This document shows, in pieces, positions 10,146 through 50,883 of a stretch of 64,000 nt of DNA; position 1 is the first letter of the stretch; every line of letters starts with the position of its first letter. The stretch comes from an uncultured Spirochaetaceae bacterium (lineage in GTDB: Bacteria > Spirochaetota > Spirochaetia > Sphaerochaetales > Sphaerochaetaceae), in assembly GCA_944389505.1 (NCBI GenBank), contig CALXMP010000006.1, forward strand, positions 1-64,000, read 5' to 3'. A program made the translations under genes and the position numbers. The notes beneath the pieces were generated by a model. It had not been told where the DNA came from, did not search any database, and was given only the letters and a program-made list of their open reading frames with translations.

Positions 10146-11150
10146 TTATTTCTCTGTCTTCACTCCGTCCTGGATTATGACAGCTGCAGAATCCAGAAAA
10201 TCCTGCGGAATCGTGATTCCGAGTGCCTCGGCTGTGTCGAGATTGAACCAGAGCTCGAAATCTGCCGGATCGGAGAGGAAGACTGTTCCGAGGGATCCCG
10301 GATTCTCTCCATTGTGGATCTTCTCGATGAGCTTTCCGACCTCAACACCTATTGAGTTGTAGTTGAAGCCCCATGCGATCAGACAGTTGAGTCCATCGAC
10401 TCCGGAAGGATCTGCGGAGAAGAGCGGCTTTCCAGCCTTCGTGCAGACATCATCGATAGCTGCGAGCGCTGAAATGACGTTGTTGTCTGTTGCGATGTAG
10501 ATCGCATCGACGCGGTCGATGATTGACTGTGTAGCCATCATTACCTCTGAGGAGTTGGATACTGCAACCTCTACGAACTCAAGTCCGAGCTTCTCACATG
10601 CAGCCTTTGCCTGCTCCATGAGCACAACACCGTTCTGCTCGCCTGAGGAGTAGACGTTTCCGATTGTCTTTGCACCTGTTATATCAGCAAGAAGCTGGAT
10701 CTGGGATTCTACAGGATTCATATCGGAGACACCGCAGACATTGCTTTCCGGATCTGCTGTGTAGTTATCTGCGACAAGGCCGGCGGATGCGGGATCTGTT
10801 ACTGCTGCGAAGAGGACAGGTCTGTCAGAGAAGATATTGGCAAGAGCCTGTGCCGATGCTGTTCCGATTCCGAGAACTATATCGCAGTCCTCGCTCTTGA
10901 ACTGCTGGGCGATTGATGCTGCTGTTGAGATATCGCCCTGGGCATTCTGGAAATCATAGCGGACAGGGATGCCTGTACCTGAGAGATAGTCCTGCATTCC
11001 TACTTCCACTGCATCGAGTGCAGCATGGGAAAGAAGCTTCGATACACCTATGAGAACCGTTCCGTCATCTGCGGAGCTTTCCTGGCTTCCTCCCGCGATA
11101 AGAGCAAAAGATGCGGCAAGGACAACCATGAGCGCAAGTATTTTTTTCAT
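10146..11150 (-). CDS. ABC substrate-binding protein 1 (TrpX-like, PF04392 type)
   Basis: A 334-residue periplasmic protein. A signal peptide (MKKILALMVVLAASFALIAG) is followed by GSQESS; there is no lipobox Cys, so it may be soluble or anchored by an uncleaved signal. Typical family phrases are present: IGVSKLLSHAALDAVE, ISTAASIAQQF and IGTASAQALANIF. The start was placed at the ATG after GGGAGGTTTT; the open frame upstream is not needed. It has its own promoter (TTGAAT, 17 bases, TATATT). It is about half identical by eye to the paralogue encoded upstream. The substrate could be tryptophan or another small aromatic; a TrpR gene occurs elsewhere in the window. Confidence 0.9.
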   Translation of the reverse strand: MKKILALMVVLAASFALIAGGSQESSADDGTVLIGVSKLLSHAALDAVEVGMQDYLSGTGIPVRYDFQNAQGDISTAASIAQQFKSEDCDIVLGIGTASAQALANIFSDRPVLFAAVTDPASAGLVADNYTADPESNVCGVSDMNPVESQIQLLADITGAKTIGNVYSSGEQNGVVLMEQAKAACEKLGLEFVEVAVSNSSEVMMATQSIIDRVDAIYIATDNNVISALAAIDDVCTKAGKPLFSADPSGVDGLNCLIAWGFNYNSIGVEVGKLIEKIHNGENPGSLGTVFLSDPADFELWFNLDTAEALGITIPQDFLDSAAVIIQDGVKTEK

Positions 11151-11168
11151 AAAACCTCCCTGAAGGAT

Positions 11169-11204
11169 AGCTATGAATATAGCTGAAGCGTGTATTTGAT
11201 TCAA
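11169..11204 (-). promoter_or_regulatory. promoter of binding protein 1 with inverted repeat
   Basis: Minus strand TTGAAT (11199-11204), 17 bases, TATATT (11176-11181). An inverted repeat AGCTAT-GAAT-ATAGCT (11169-11184) overlaps the -10 and could be an operator. Confidence 0.55.
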
Positions 11205-11241
11205 TGTTGCGTATGCACGTTTCGGAATAATTATGCACAAA

Positions 11242-12186
11242 CTATTCGATTATGTACTTTGCTCTGCCAAGTATGTCCTCAGGTATATCCAGCCCCAGCT
11301 TTTCTGCCGTAGCTAGGTTCACATAGAGTTCGAGATCGGTGAGATACTCCGTCCCTATATCCTCGCAGCTCTCTCCATTGATGAGCCTCTTGACGATTTC
11401 CCCTGTAAGGCGTCCTGATGCGTAGTAGTCGAATCCGCCTGCAAGGAGCACTTCCGTTCCTTCTGCAGATGTTACATCAGCGCTGAAGAGAGGAACTGAT
11501 GCATCGCTGCAGACATCCGAAAGTGATGCTATTGCTGATACAACGGTATTATCGATAGCGACATACATAGCATCGACCCTGTCAATGATGGATAACGCTG
11601 CCATCCTGACCTCTGATGAGTTGGATACCGATGCGGTCACGAGTTCCGTTCCGTTCTCCCTGCATATCGCGGCCATCTGCTCCATAGCGGAGATGCCATT
11701 CGCCTCGCCGGATGTATAGACCATACCGATACGCTCTGCTCCTGTAATCTCTTCTATCAGTCTGTAATGCTCGGCAGCAGGGACCTGGTCAGAGACTCCG
11801 CAGACATTTGGAAGTCCATCAAGTCCTGCGGCTTTGACATCTGTTACGGAGGAATAGATTACGGGGATATCATCAAATACATTAGCAAGTGCCTGCGCCG
11901 TCGGAGTTGCGATGCCGATCACGAGATCCTTGCCTTCGGTCCTGAAGAGCTGTGCTATCGAAGCGGCTGTGCTTATCTCTCCGTTCGCATTCTGCACTTC
12001 GATATCCGCATCGATGCCAGCATCCTCAAGATAGTCGCAGATACCTTTCTCAATTGCATCCAGGGCAGGGTGGGAGAGGAGCTTCGAGATTCCTATTCTC
12101 AGTGTCCCGTCTTCTCTTGCTCCTTCTGCAGCGACCGGTGCGATGATTGATATTATAATAATGATAGATAAAAGCAGTTTTCTCAT
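11242..12186 (-). CDS. ABC substrate-binding protein 2 (TrpX-like)
   Basis: A 314-residue paralogue of the next gene, with signal peptide MRKLLLSIIIIISIIAPVAA and cleavage near AEGARED; no lipobox Cys. It shares IGISKLLSHPALDAIE and EISTAASIAQLF with its neighbour. It is first in the operon (binding proteins 2 and 1, permease, ATPase, MATE). AGGAGAATCAT precedes the ATG. The promoter contains a 7-1-7 palindromic operator. Two binding proteins sharing one permease/ATPase could widen the substrate range. Confidence 0.9.
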   Translation of the reverse strand: MRKLLLSIIIIISIIAPVAAEGAREDGTLRIGISKLLSHPALDAIEKGICDYLEDAGIDADIEVQNANGEISTAASIAQLFRTEGKDLVIGIATPTAQALANVFDDIPVIYSSVTDVKAAGLDGLPNVCGVSDQVPAAEHYRLIEEITGAERIGMVYTSGEANGISAMEQMAAICRENGTELVTASVSNSSEVRMAALSIIDRVDAMYVAIDNTVVSAIASLSDVCSDASVPLFSADVTSAEGTEVLLAGGFDYYASGRLTGEIVKRLINGESCEDIGTEYLTDLELYVNLATAEKLGLDIPEDILGRAKYIIE

Positions 12187-12260: not shown

Positions 12261-12416
12261 TTAGAAATCTATATCGAATTTCTCGTCCTCCAGGTCCTCG
12301 TACTCGCTTTCTGAGTCTTCCTCCCCAGTGGCATTCCCTTCCACATCGGGGATTATCGAGAAGAGTTCCTCTATATCATCATCGATCTCATCATCTTCGA
12401 AGCACATGATAATCAT
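12261..12416 (-). CDS. small acidic protein (51 residues)
   Basis: A reading frame MIIMCFEDDEIDDDIEELF... ending KFDIDF, about half Asp/Glu. It has an upstream AGGA four to five bases from the ATG and lies between the terminator at 12485 and the promoter at 12241. No membrane segment or known motif is seen. The palindrome GATAAT-CAT-ATTATC (12408-12422) covers its start codon and could affect translation or bind a regulator. It could be a real small protein or chance; the strongly biased composition and isolated position favour a gene. The function is unknown. Confidence 0.5.
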   Translation of the reverse strand: MIIMCFEDDEIDDDIEELFSIIPDVEGNATGEEDSESEYEDLEDEKFDIDF

Positions 12417-12484
12417 ATTATCCTGCGTTTTCTCCGTTTGTCATGATAATTGATATTAAGAACATTCATATGATTCAGCATAAG

Positions 12485-12524
12485 AAAAGCTGCCTCGAAT
12501 GGATTGGCTTTCTTGGCAGCTTTT
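12485..12524. terminator. bidirectional terminator
   Basis: AAAAGCTGCC and GGCAGCTTTT form a perfect 10-bp stem with A/T tails on both sides and a 20-base loop. It ends the minus-strand lipoprotein transcript (stop at 12548). Confidence 0.7.
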
Positions 12525-12547
12525 GTAGAAGATTATAATGGCTGTTA

Positions 12548-13774
12548 TCAGATTGAGTCAGAAGATGAGACAGAACCTGTCATTCCAGCGTTGATTGTTA
12601 TATAGGTCTTCGGATTATATACATTGCAGATTTCTACATCTGTTTTATTCCCTTCAAGAACAGCATTTACTCCATAATATGTTCCATCCACAGCTAAAAG
12701 AACATCTCCATTATCTCCTTTAGTTCCATAAAACTCAGAGTTTTTCAGAATAAGTTCTGGCTTCGCCCCTTCCTCAGTCGCAACAACCCTGATTGGAGCT
12801 GAGTATTTTGAAATATCAGCACTTTCATCTACGGTAGCTCCGCAATTATTGAACTTGCATCCATCTACAGTGATTGTCTTTGTGCCCGCTGTTTTCATAT
12901 TGAAATTCAGTGGTACTGCTATATCCGTGAATGTGCAGTCAATGAATTCAAGTTTTCCTGGATTGTTTGTATAGAAAGGAGAATCTGTAGATTCAACAGA
13001 GCAATTGGAGATAGTAATATTTGTAGTGCCTTTTGTACCGGTGAAGTAAAGCATCCTTCCTGCGTTGGCGAGAGAACCATTTCCTTTGTTATGGCAATTA
13101 TTCATTGTTACATTGATAATATCATTATCATTCGGAAGCTGATCATCAGGCTGCCCCCACAGATATAGGTTTTCTGCATCATTTATTACTATATTTATCT
13201 CACCGCTCTCCGGGTTTTTCCAAAGATTATTGTATGTATATATTGCAAGATCCCTGTTTCCGAAATCCGCACCATTTGCGTTGATAGTGATAGACCCATT
13301 TATCTCTATTCCATGTGCATTGTATTCTTTTATTGTTTCTGCTGTGATATCAATCACTCTCTCTGCAGGATCAAGAGCTATCGCCGCTTCAACAGCTTCT
13401 TTTAGAGTTTTATAGTATTTTAATCCAATGCGTGCTTCGGAAGCATCAATGTTGGTCTTGCTATTATTGCAATATGTACAGATATCATTTTCAAAGTTAT
13501 GGCCATGTGCATTGATAGCTTCGGTTTTTTCTTCTCCGCAGATTAAGCATGTGTATAGCATTACGCCATCATCCACACAGGTCTCTGCTATAAGGACGTT
13601 ACCAGTATCCCATTGGTGTGAATGGTCTGAAATGTCATTACCGGTTCCTGGAATAAAAACAGGTATATACTGTGTACAGGAAGTAATTGCCAATACTGCG
13701 ATCAGGAGGGAAACAAGAACAGTTAAAGACTTATACCCCCCCCCCGTCGTGTGTGACTTGTAGATTTTTCTCAT
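12548..13774 (-). CDS. phase-variable lipoprotein with beta-helix-like repeats
   Basis: A 408-residue lipoprotein. The start at 13774 follows AGAGGAGAAAAA; a longer open frame upstream is unsupported. Ten Gs encode the Thr-Gly-Gly-Gly at residues 10-13, before a signal peptide ending LLIAVLAITSC. Next comes a His/Cys-rich segment with CLICGEEK and CTYCNNS (CxxC pairs) as in gut bacterial surface proteins. The remaining 250 residues carry repeats such as NITISNCSVES and LEFIDCTFTD, which look like turns of a right-handed beta-helix. The DNA is AT-rich compared with neighbours. The frame is ON at G10; 9 or 11 Gs give stops within a few codons. A Fur-like box overlaps the promoter. It is probably a surface antigen or adhesin. 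Confidence 0.8.
   Translation of the reverse strand: MRKIYKSHTTGGGYKSLTVLVSLLIAVLAITSCTQYIPVFIPGTGNDISDHSHQWDTGNVLIAETCVDDGVMLYTCLICGEEKTEAINAHGHNFENDICTYCNNSKTNIDASEARIGLKYYKTLKEAVEAAIALDPAERVIDITAETIKEYNAHGIEINGSITINANGADFGNRDLAIYTYNNLWKNPESGEINIVINDAENLYLWGQPDDQLPNDNDIINVTMNNCHNKGNGSLANAGRMLYFTGTKGTTNITISNCSVESTDSPFYTNNPGKLEFIDCTFTDIAVPLNFNMKTAGTKTITVDGCKFNNCGATVDESADISKYSAPIRVVATEEGAKPELILKNSEFYGTKGDNGDVLLAVDGTYYGVNAVLEGNKTDVEICNVYNPKTYITINAGMTGSVSSSDSI
13736..13745 (-). repeat. G10 homopolymer tract (contingency tract)
   Basis: Ten consecutive C on the plus strand (G on the coding strand) within codons 10-13 of the lipoprotein. With 11 Gs the frame reads GTA TAA; with 9 it reads GGT ATA AGT CTT TAA. 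Poly-G tracts of this size drive slipped-strand phase variation in treponemes and other host-associated bacteria. Confidence 0.8.
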
Positions 13775-13809
13775 TTTTTCTCCTCTTGTGGCAATATGAG
13801 TTTGTTTCT

Positions 13810-13824
13810 TGATAAAGATTATCA
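13810..13824 (-). promoter_or_regulatory. Fur-like box at the lipoprotein promoter
   Basis: TGATAAA, one base, ATTATCA differs by one base from the 7-1-7 Fur core and from the box upstream of nrdA. It overlaps the predicted -10. Confidence 0.5.
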
Positions 13825-13850
13825 TAATTTTTAACATAACGTCATGACAA
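13821..13850 (-). promoter_or_regulatory. predicted lipoprotein promoter
   Basis: Minus strand TTGTCA (13845-13850), 18 bases, TATGAT (13821-13826), giving a leader of about 40 bases before the ATG. Confidence 0.45.
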
Positions 13851-13919
13851 TATGAAGAAATTTCTGGGTTTCTTAAAATATGGACCTGAAACATTCTGGA
13901 ATATTAATGAATTAAACAG

Positions 13920-13950
13920 CAGGAGCTATCCTGGGATAGAATAGCCCCTG
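13920..13950 (-). terminator. terminator of the nucleosidase gene
   Basis: On the minus strand CAGGGGCTAT pairs with ATAGCTCCTG (one G-U) around an 11-base loop, followed by CTGTTTAATT. It starts 30 bases after the stop at 13980. Confidence 0.6.
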
Positions 13951-13979
13951 AGCACAATATTCAAATCATATTGCTGTGA

Positions 13980-50761: not shown

Positions 50762-50786
50762 AAGATCTCCTTCCGGAGGGCACTGT

Positions 50787-50853
50787 CCTTCCCTTCGCTG
50801 GCATTATCCAGATCAGGTCCGAGGGTATGTTCTCAGGCAGATGCCACCCCTAG
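50787..50853 (-). promoter_or_regulatory. TPP riboswitch (THI element)
   Basis: The minus strand carries the conserved blocks GGGGTGGC, CTGAGA, ACCCTCGGACCTGATCTGG and ATAATGCCAGCGAAGGGAA in order. These form the TPP-binding three-way junction. Downstream, CTCC-GGAA-GGAG (about 50768-50779) can fold over the thiB Shine-Dalgarno, implying translational control: excess thiamine pyrophosphate shuts off uptake. Confidence 0.95.
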
Positions 50854-50883
50854 ACAGCTAGAATCTACCGTTCAATCCATGGC

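Follow-up and report, generated by a model that had tools for sequence, protein, structure and literature searches.

A poly-G tract ahead of a lipoprotein signal peptide as a very probable translational switch, one of a genus-wide set in a spirochaete

Ten consecutive Gs close to the 5' end of a lipoprotein gene very probably form a translational phase-variation switch, by which each cell would randomly make or omit a lipid-anchored surface protein. The gene lies in a 64-kb stretch of spirochaete DNA, referred to here as the window. The phase-variable surface lipoprotein proposed in an original prediction, made from the letters of the window, is strongly supported by poly-G tracts across the genus, by their mixed ON and OFF reading frames and by variable tract lengths in near-identical flanks. 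Slipped-strand mispairing would shift the tract length one base at a time, and the out-of-frame lengths would stop translation within a few codons, 5' of the signal peptide. Because the stop would precede the signal peptide, cells would randomly make or skip the lipoprotein. Such switching can be expected to take place within a population, and its benefit may be that cells evade host immunity, phages or competitors, or hedge their bets on adhesion.

On a wider scale, we lean towards the view that a flagella-less genus outside Treponema diversifies its lipoprotein surface by a large poly-G phasome whose tracts are of two kinds, in promoter spacers and at signal peptides. Proteins whose bodies are unrelated would have the 5' modules (promoter, tract and signal peptide) in common, with perhaps some recombination at the tract, and the mechanism would be old in the class and not a speciality of the syphilis spirochaete.

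Results

Reading frame at the G10 tract

On the minus strand, the 5' end of the gene reads AGGAG, then ATG AGA AAA ATC TAC AAG TCA CAC ACG ACG GGG GGG GGG TAT AAG TCT. The ten Gs comprise the last base of codon 10 and codons 11-13, 3' of the ribosome binding site and the ATG and 5' of the signal peptide, just where the original prediction had located them (Table 1). The prediction also held that the frame is open at ten Gs and closed by one base more or less, which the frame test bore out: ten Gs gave a product of 408 aa, nine gave 16 aa and eleven gave 14 aa, the length of ten being read from one assembly, in which homopolymer lengths can err and blur the frames too. The gene has the anatomy of a translational contingency gene, namely a long 5' coding homopolymer in which a change of one base brings an early stop.

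The tract is separated from Cys33 by 20 codons. This interval holds no ATG and its sole TTG sits within the hydrophobic core, so that a start 3' of the tract would cost the signal peptide. Translation starting downstream of the tract, which had been named in advance as evidence against a switch, was ruled out, as there is no start codon ahead of the hydrophobic core. We also ruled out the G10 run as a promoter spacer, for which the TATAAG after the Gs would serve; no -35 element lies ahead of it, and the gene has its own promoter, ribosome binding site and ATG upstream. Likewise, the gene is not of the poly-G promoter-spacer type known from tp0126 and porA, as its promoter, TTGTCA-18-TATGAT, is without poly-G and its tract lies in the ORF.

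Within the window, G10 is the only run of at least eight Gs. Dinucleotide shuffles of the window contained 0.9 G8 positions on average and reached three in 5 of 100 cases, so the window on its own is suggestive at most, and the tract is only mildly unusual in 64 kb.

Table 1. Features of the lipoprotein gene and its surroundings, in window coordinates
Feature	Position	Strand	Basis or remark
Lipoprotein gene, 408 aa, start ATG at 13774	12548-13774	-	ORF list, frame test
G10 tract, proposed slipped-strand switch	13736-13745	-	sequence, frame test
Signal peptide, codons 1-32, lipobox LAITS-C33	13679-13774	-	motif by eye and script
Ribosome binding site AGGAG	13780-13784	-	sequence
-35 element TTGTCA	13845-13850	-	promoter scan, 10/12, spacer 18
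-10 element TATGAT	13821-13826	-	promoter scan
Fur-box-like sequence AATTATGATAATCTTTATC, 16/19 versus consensus, over the -10	13811-13829	-	genome-wide not beyond chance
Cys/His module, residues 51-102, HSHQW...C...CLIC...HGH...CTYC	13469-13624	-	common to other poly-G lipoproteins
Beta-strand-rich, probably beta-helical part, about residues 160-310	12845-13297	-	low-confidence model, weak beta-helix matches; PF20585 match of homologue
Accessory segment with the lipoprotein gene	12408-13978		DNA comparison, flanks 96.9% identical to sister species G014
Terminator-like hairpin 3' of the upstream nucleosidase gene	13920-13950	-	between nucleosidase and lipoprotein genes

The lipoprotein and its relatives

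By motif, the product is a lipoprotein (LTVLVSLLIAVLAITSC; lipobox LAITSC with Cys33), and the lipid anchor that had been predicted is clear. The 408-aa protein matched no family in Pfam (E 0.1) or NCBIfam. A homologue from the sister species (L029 in G014), 25% identical to it over 302 aa, matched PF20585 (Pectate_lyase_5, a putative pectate lyase-like adhesive domain) above the cut-off. The single-sequence structure model of the 408-aa protein had a pLDDT of 42, and its weak fold matches were mostly beta-helical, the best with an E-value of 0.036. In favour of the predicted beta-helix-like character are the domain match of the homologue and the fold matches; with a model of low confidence and no direct Pfam match, a beta-helical fold of the modelled protein is weakly to moderately supported. 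The product looks like a lipid-anchored beta-helix adhesin. We infer that it is exposed at the surface and that, as the labels of the original prediction had it, it may be a host-exposed antigen.

The Cys- and His-rich part that had been noticed in the protein proved to be a module common to other poly-G lipoproteins. The pattern HxHxW...C...CxxC occurs in relatives in three genomes (G014, G020 and G033) and in a paralogue on contig C12 of the source genome. Their tracts (G12, G7 and G9, respectively, and G9 in the paralogue) all lie in promoter spacers; a tract in paralogues had been proposed as a check on the switch, and the C12 paralogue does carry one, placed in the promoter spacer. In genome G022, the tract of a short weak match (E about 0.01) is a coding tract right behind the lipobox, and its frame is closed. 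Promoter tracts in the relatives and coding tracts in the window gene and in G022 suggest that kindred lipoproteins are switched by either mode. The Cys/His module was also found in a Clostridia record.

Fur-like box at the promoter

The original prediction placed a near-Fur box at 13810-13824, over the -10 element, and proposed metal control of the gene. The box exists and does cover the -10, at the slightly different position given in Table 1, and metal control by Fur had no support above the chance level: Fur-like sites with at most three mismatches number four in the genome, as opposed to about 3.3 expected when the shuffle rate of the window is scaled up. A palindromic, better Fur-like box, with one mismatch on the minus strand, lies at 1635-1659, 23 bp 5' of nrdA (1682), the first gene of the ribonucleotide reductase pair nrdAB. 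That Fur represses the lipoprotein gene via the box over its -10, in addition to tract switching, appears possible but doubtful: the match is 16/19 and sits exactly over the -10, the genome encodes two Fur-family proteins and the better box ahead of nrdAB is in the same window, but chance would supply nearly as many sites per genome as were found, and a TATGATAAT -10 looks like half a Fur box anyway.

Poly-G tracts across the source genome

We surveyed the source genome by pattern searches and fetched stretches. Tracts of at least nine Gs occur at 18 separate places (33 overlapping matches), compared with about 5.3 expected under a dinucleotide model, and four tracts reach at least eleven Gs, compared with 0.27 expected under the same model. 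Runs of A10 are absent from the genome, where about 2.6 were expected. Thirteen of the 18 tracts lie between a TTGAC(A/T) -35 element and a -10-like hexamer, mostly ahead of lipoprotein genes, and three more precede a lipoprotein gene (L012, L015) or one whose product has a signal-like N-terminus (L025). At position 5877 of contig C12, a coding-strand poly-C tract follows a few codons past the ATG, ahead of a lipoprotein signal peptide, and its assembled frame is closed. The tracts are thus over-represented and non-randomly placed, and their distribution makes the window tract one of a set, nearly all of which are found at the 5' ends of genes for lipoproteins or other exported or secreted proteins. 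Within the set, the 13 promoter tracts would act on transcription by altered -35/-10 spacing, and two tracts, G10 and the one at C12:5877, would act on translation. Most tracts of the set are promoter spacers, not coding sequence, and the window gene belongs to the minority.

Two other poly-G lipoprotein genes of the genome have a stop with an open frame beyond it; that of L016 lies within the signal peptide, after 20 codons, and that of L015 after 59 codons. The 60 bp upstream of the poly-G in the L023 promoter (G000:C16:692) are identical to those of L017, and the 60 bp downstream are 98% identical to those of L018, as if joined at the tract. Since L017 and L023 lie near contig ends, this mosaic may reflect either recombination or an assembly chimera.

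Tract length between near-identical copies

Several tracts differ in length within closely matching surroundings. In the source genome, L010 with G9 and L020 with G10 share 93% identity in the 60 bp before the tract and full identity in the 60 bp after it. The G10 tract of L128 in the sister species G014 has flanks with 97% upstream and 100% downstream identity to those of L010, and L061 in G036 has G8 ahead of the same downstream sequence. Moreover, copies of a multi-copy coding family carry 9, 10 and 11 Gs, with flanks that hardly differ. These differing lengths, observed in other tracts of the genome and the genus, point indirectly to tract instability.

Coding tracts in the genus

The genus was searched for a ribosome binding site, an ATG, a short gap and G9, and two loci (L035 and L021) were added. 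At about 20 loci, a single frame encodes the signal peptide and the body of a lipoprotein, and both remaining frames stop within about 45 codons. As assembled, about 5 of the frames are ON and about 15 OFF, near the 1/3 for free-running lengths, although assembly error may contribute to this scatter. With ordinary coding Gs, nearly all frames should be open; about one third open is the proportion given by free-running tract lengths. Several of the loci (L075, L078, L079, L088, L091 and L095) belong to one multi-copy family, and not all are therefore independent. The reversed control of the pattern was not clean because promoter tracts followed by a ribosome binding site also match. Three TTG-started 'coding' matches (L049, L054 and L062) were discarded, as the TTG is part of the -35 TTGACA of a promoter tract. 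In three species (G021, G032 and G040), coding tracts are present and matches to the promoter pattern are absent.

The gene itself is, judging from the DNA comparison, an accessory cassette. The sister species G014 has about 117 unrelated bp in place of the 1.57-kb segment and lacks the gene. Downstream of the lipoprotein gene, two tandem genes for substrate-binding proteins span 10146-12186, of which the one at 11242-12186 has a TrpX family match below the cut-off; a TPP riboswitch (Rfam RF00059) lies farther away, at 50772-50861 on the minus strand. The absence of the segment from the sister species and the further frame breaks in L015 and L016 would suit a newly arrived or decaying accessory gene, whose tract stems from relaxed selection and is not a selected switch. 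We consider this improbable, as the ORF is intact over 408 codons and is accompanied by a promoter, a ribosome binding site and a lipobox, and tracts stand at the same position in lipoproteins whose bodies are unrelated. Even harder to credit is the view that the G run arose by chance or from base composition and, lying in a tolerant n-region, plays no part in switching: a single G10 in 64 kb is just mildly unusual and glycines are tolerated in signal-peptide n-regions, but the same architecture recurs at about 20 genus loci, mostly with the frame closed, 13 further tracts occupy promoter spacers in the source genome, and equally long A runs are absent. A selected translational switch remains by far our preferred reading of the G10 tract.

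Promoter tracts in the genus, class and phylum

The promoter pattern TTGACA-N5-13-G8 was present in 34 of the 48 genus genomes, and a single genome holds as many as 28 matches, some of which overlap. Its reversed control matched none of the 48. Among 70 tracts in fetched loci, TAnnnT directly follows the tract in 65, the -35 and -10 elements are 16-22 nt apart (mode 18-19), and the median distance from the tract to the start codon is 38 nt; a lipobox is present in at least 54 of 59 products. As the patterns behind most of this set demanded eight Gs, short, probably more active tracts are under-sampled in it.

In a phylum-wide draw of 296 genomes, 41 carried the promoter pattern, all but one of them in the source class. 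The sole genome from outside the class, G085, has four matches to TTGACA-N-G8-TA. Within the class, four genomes of another genus (G312, G204, G200 and G133; genus g12, family f3) have 9 to 20 promoter-type poly-G matches each, from which it follows that large poly-G repertoires reach beyond the source genus. FlaA was detected in 44 of the 60 class genomes searched and in no control out of 14; it was absent from all four sampled genomes of the source family. From sequence, we infer that the source family is flagella-less and Sphaerochaetaceae-like and belongs to the class Spirochaetia.

Discussion

Most work on poly-G switching in spirochaetes has dealt with Treponema pallidum, a difficult organism to handle. 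The roughly 18 tracts of the genome described here, together with the same pattern in dozens of non-Treponema relatives, indicate that the strategy extends well past T. pallidum. The tracts also offer many natural replicates in which to study how expression depends on spacer length and reading frame. Furthermore, whether an assembly shows such a gene as ON or OFF is arbitrary, and these lipoproteins are therefore easily mis-annotated as pseudogenes or missed.

The poly-G switch type itself is already known from T. pallidum; a genus-wide lipoprotein phasome apparently has not been described so far. A literature search gave nothing that joins Sphaerochaeta with phase variation, which is a weak sign of novelty, as subscription papers were thinly covered. 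Within the same coverage, the literature on gut spirochetes, on homopolymers in metagenome-assembled genomes and on T. denticola likewise yielded no prior description.

In T. pallidum, varying poly-G tracts in promoters affect tprE, tprG, tprJ, tprL and tp0126, and the tprL tracts vary in vivo (PMC7864442). The poly-G of tp0126 lies between the -35 and -10 elements, with an optimum of 17 nt, and in an E. coli reporter the activity was higher with 8 Gs than with 10 Gs (PMC7864442). The promoter class described here has the same anatomy, with similar poly-G lengths at the promoters of outer-membrane proteins in T. pallidum, and would switch by the T. pallidum mechanism; the source organism appears to belong to the same class. 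Unlike the T. pallidum tracts, the window tract is a coding one, ahead of the signal peptide of a lipoprotein. Here lipoproteins are the targets, whereas those of T. pallidum are Tpr or OmpW proteins, and the source family, in its four sampled genomes, is without FlaA.

Neisseria meningitidis has a poly-G in the -35/-10 spacer of porA and a poly-C at the -35 of opc (PMC7864442). The likeness lies in promoter homopolymers that switch transcription, and the tract of L015 abuts the -35 as in opc; the organism and the proteins are unrelated, however, and the window gene has a coding tract. As for the adhesive domain PF20585, the homologue L029 scores above its cut-off and most folds matched by the window model are beta-helical, but the window protein itself is without a Pfam match at E 0.1 and its model is of low confidence.

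The phasomes of Neisseria, Campylobacter and Helicobacter consist of many loci per genome with slipped-strand frame switching near the 5' ends of surface genes. The window tract would act like their coding contingency genes, as a translational switch. The repertoire described here differs from them in that the coding tracts examined lie in or beside lipoprotein signal peptides and are paralleled by a promoter class.
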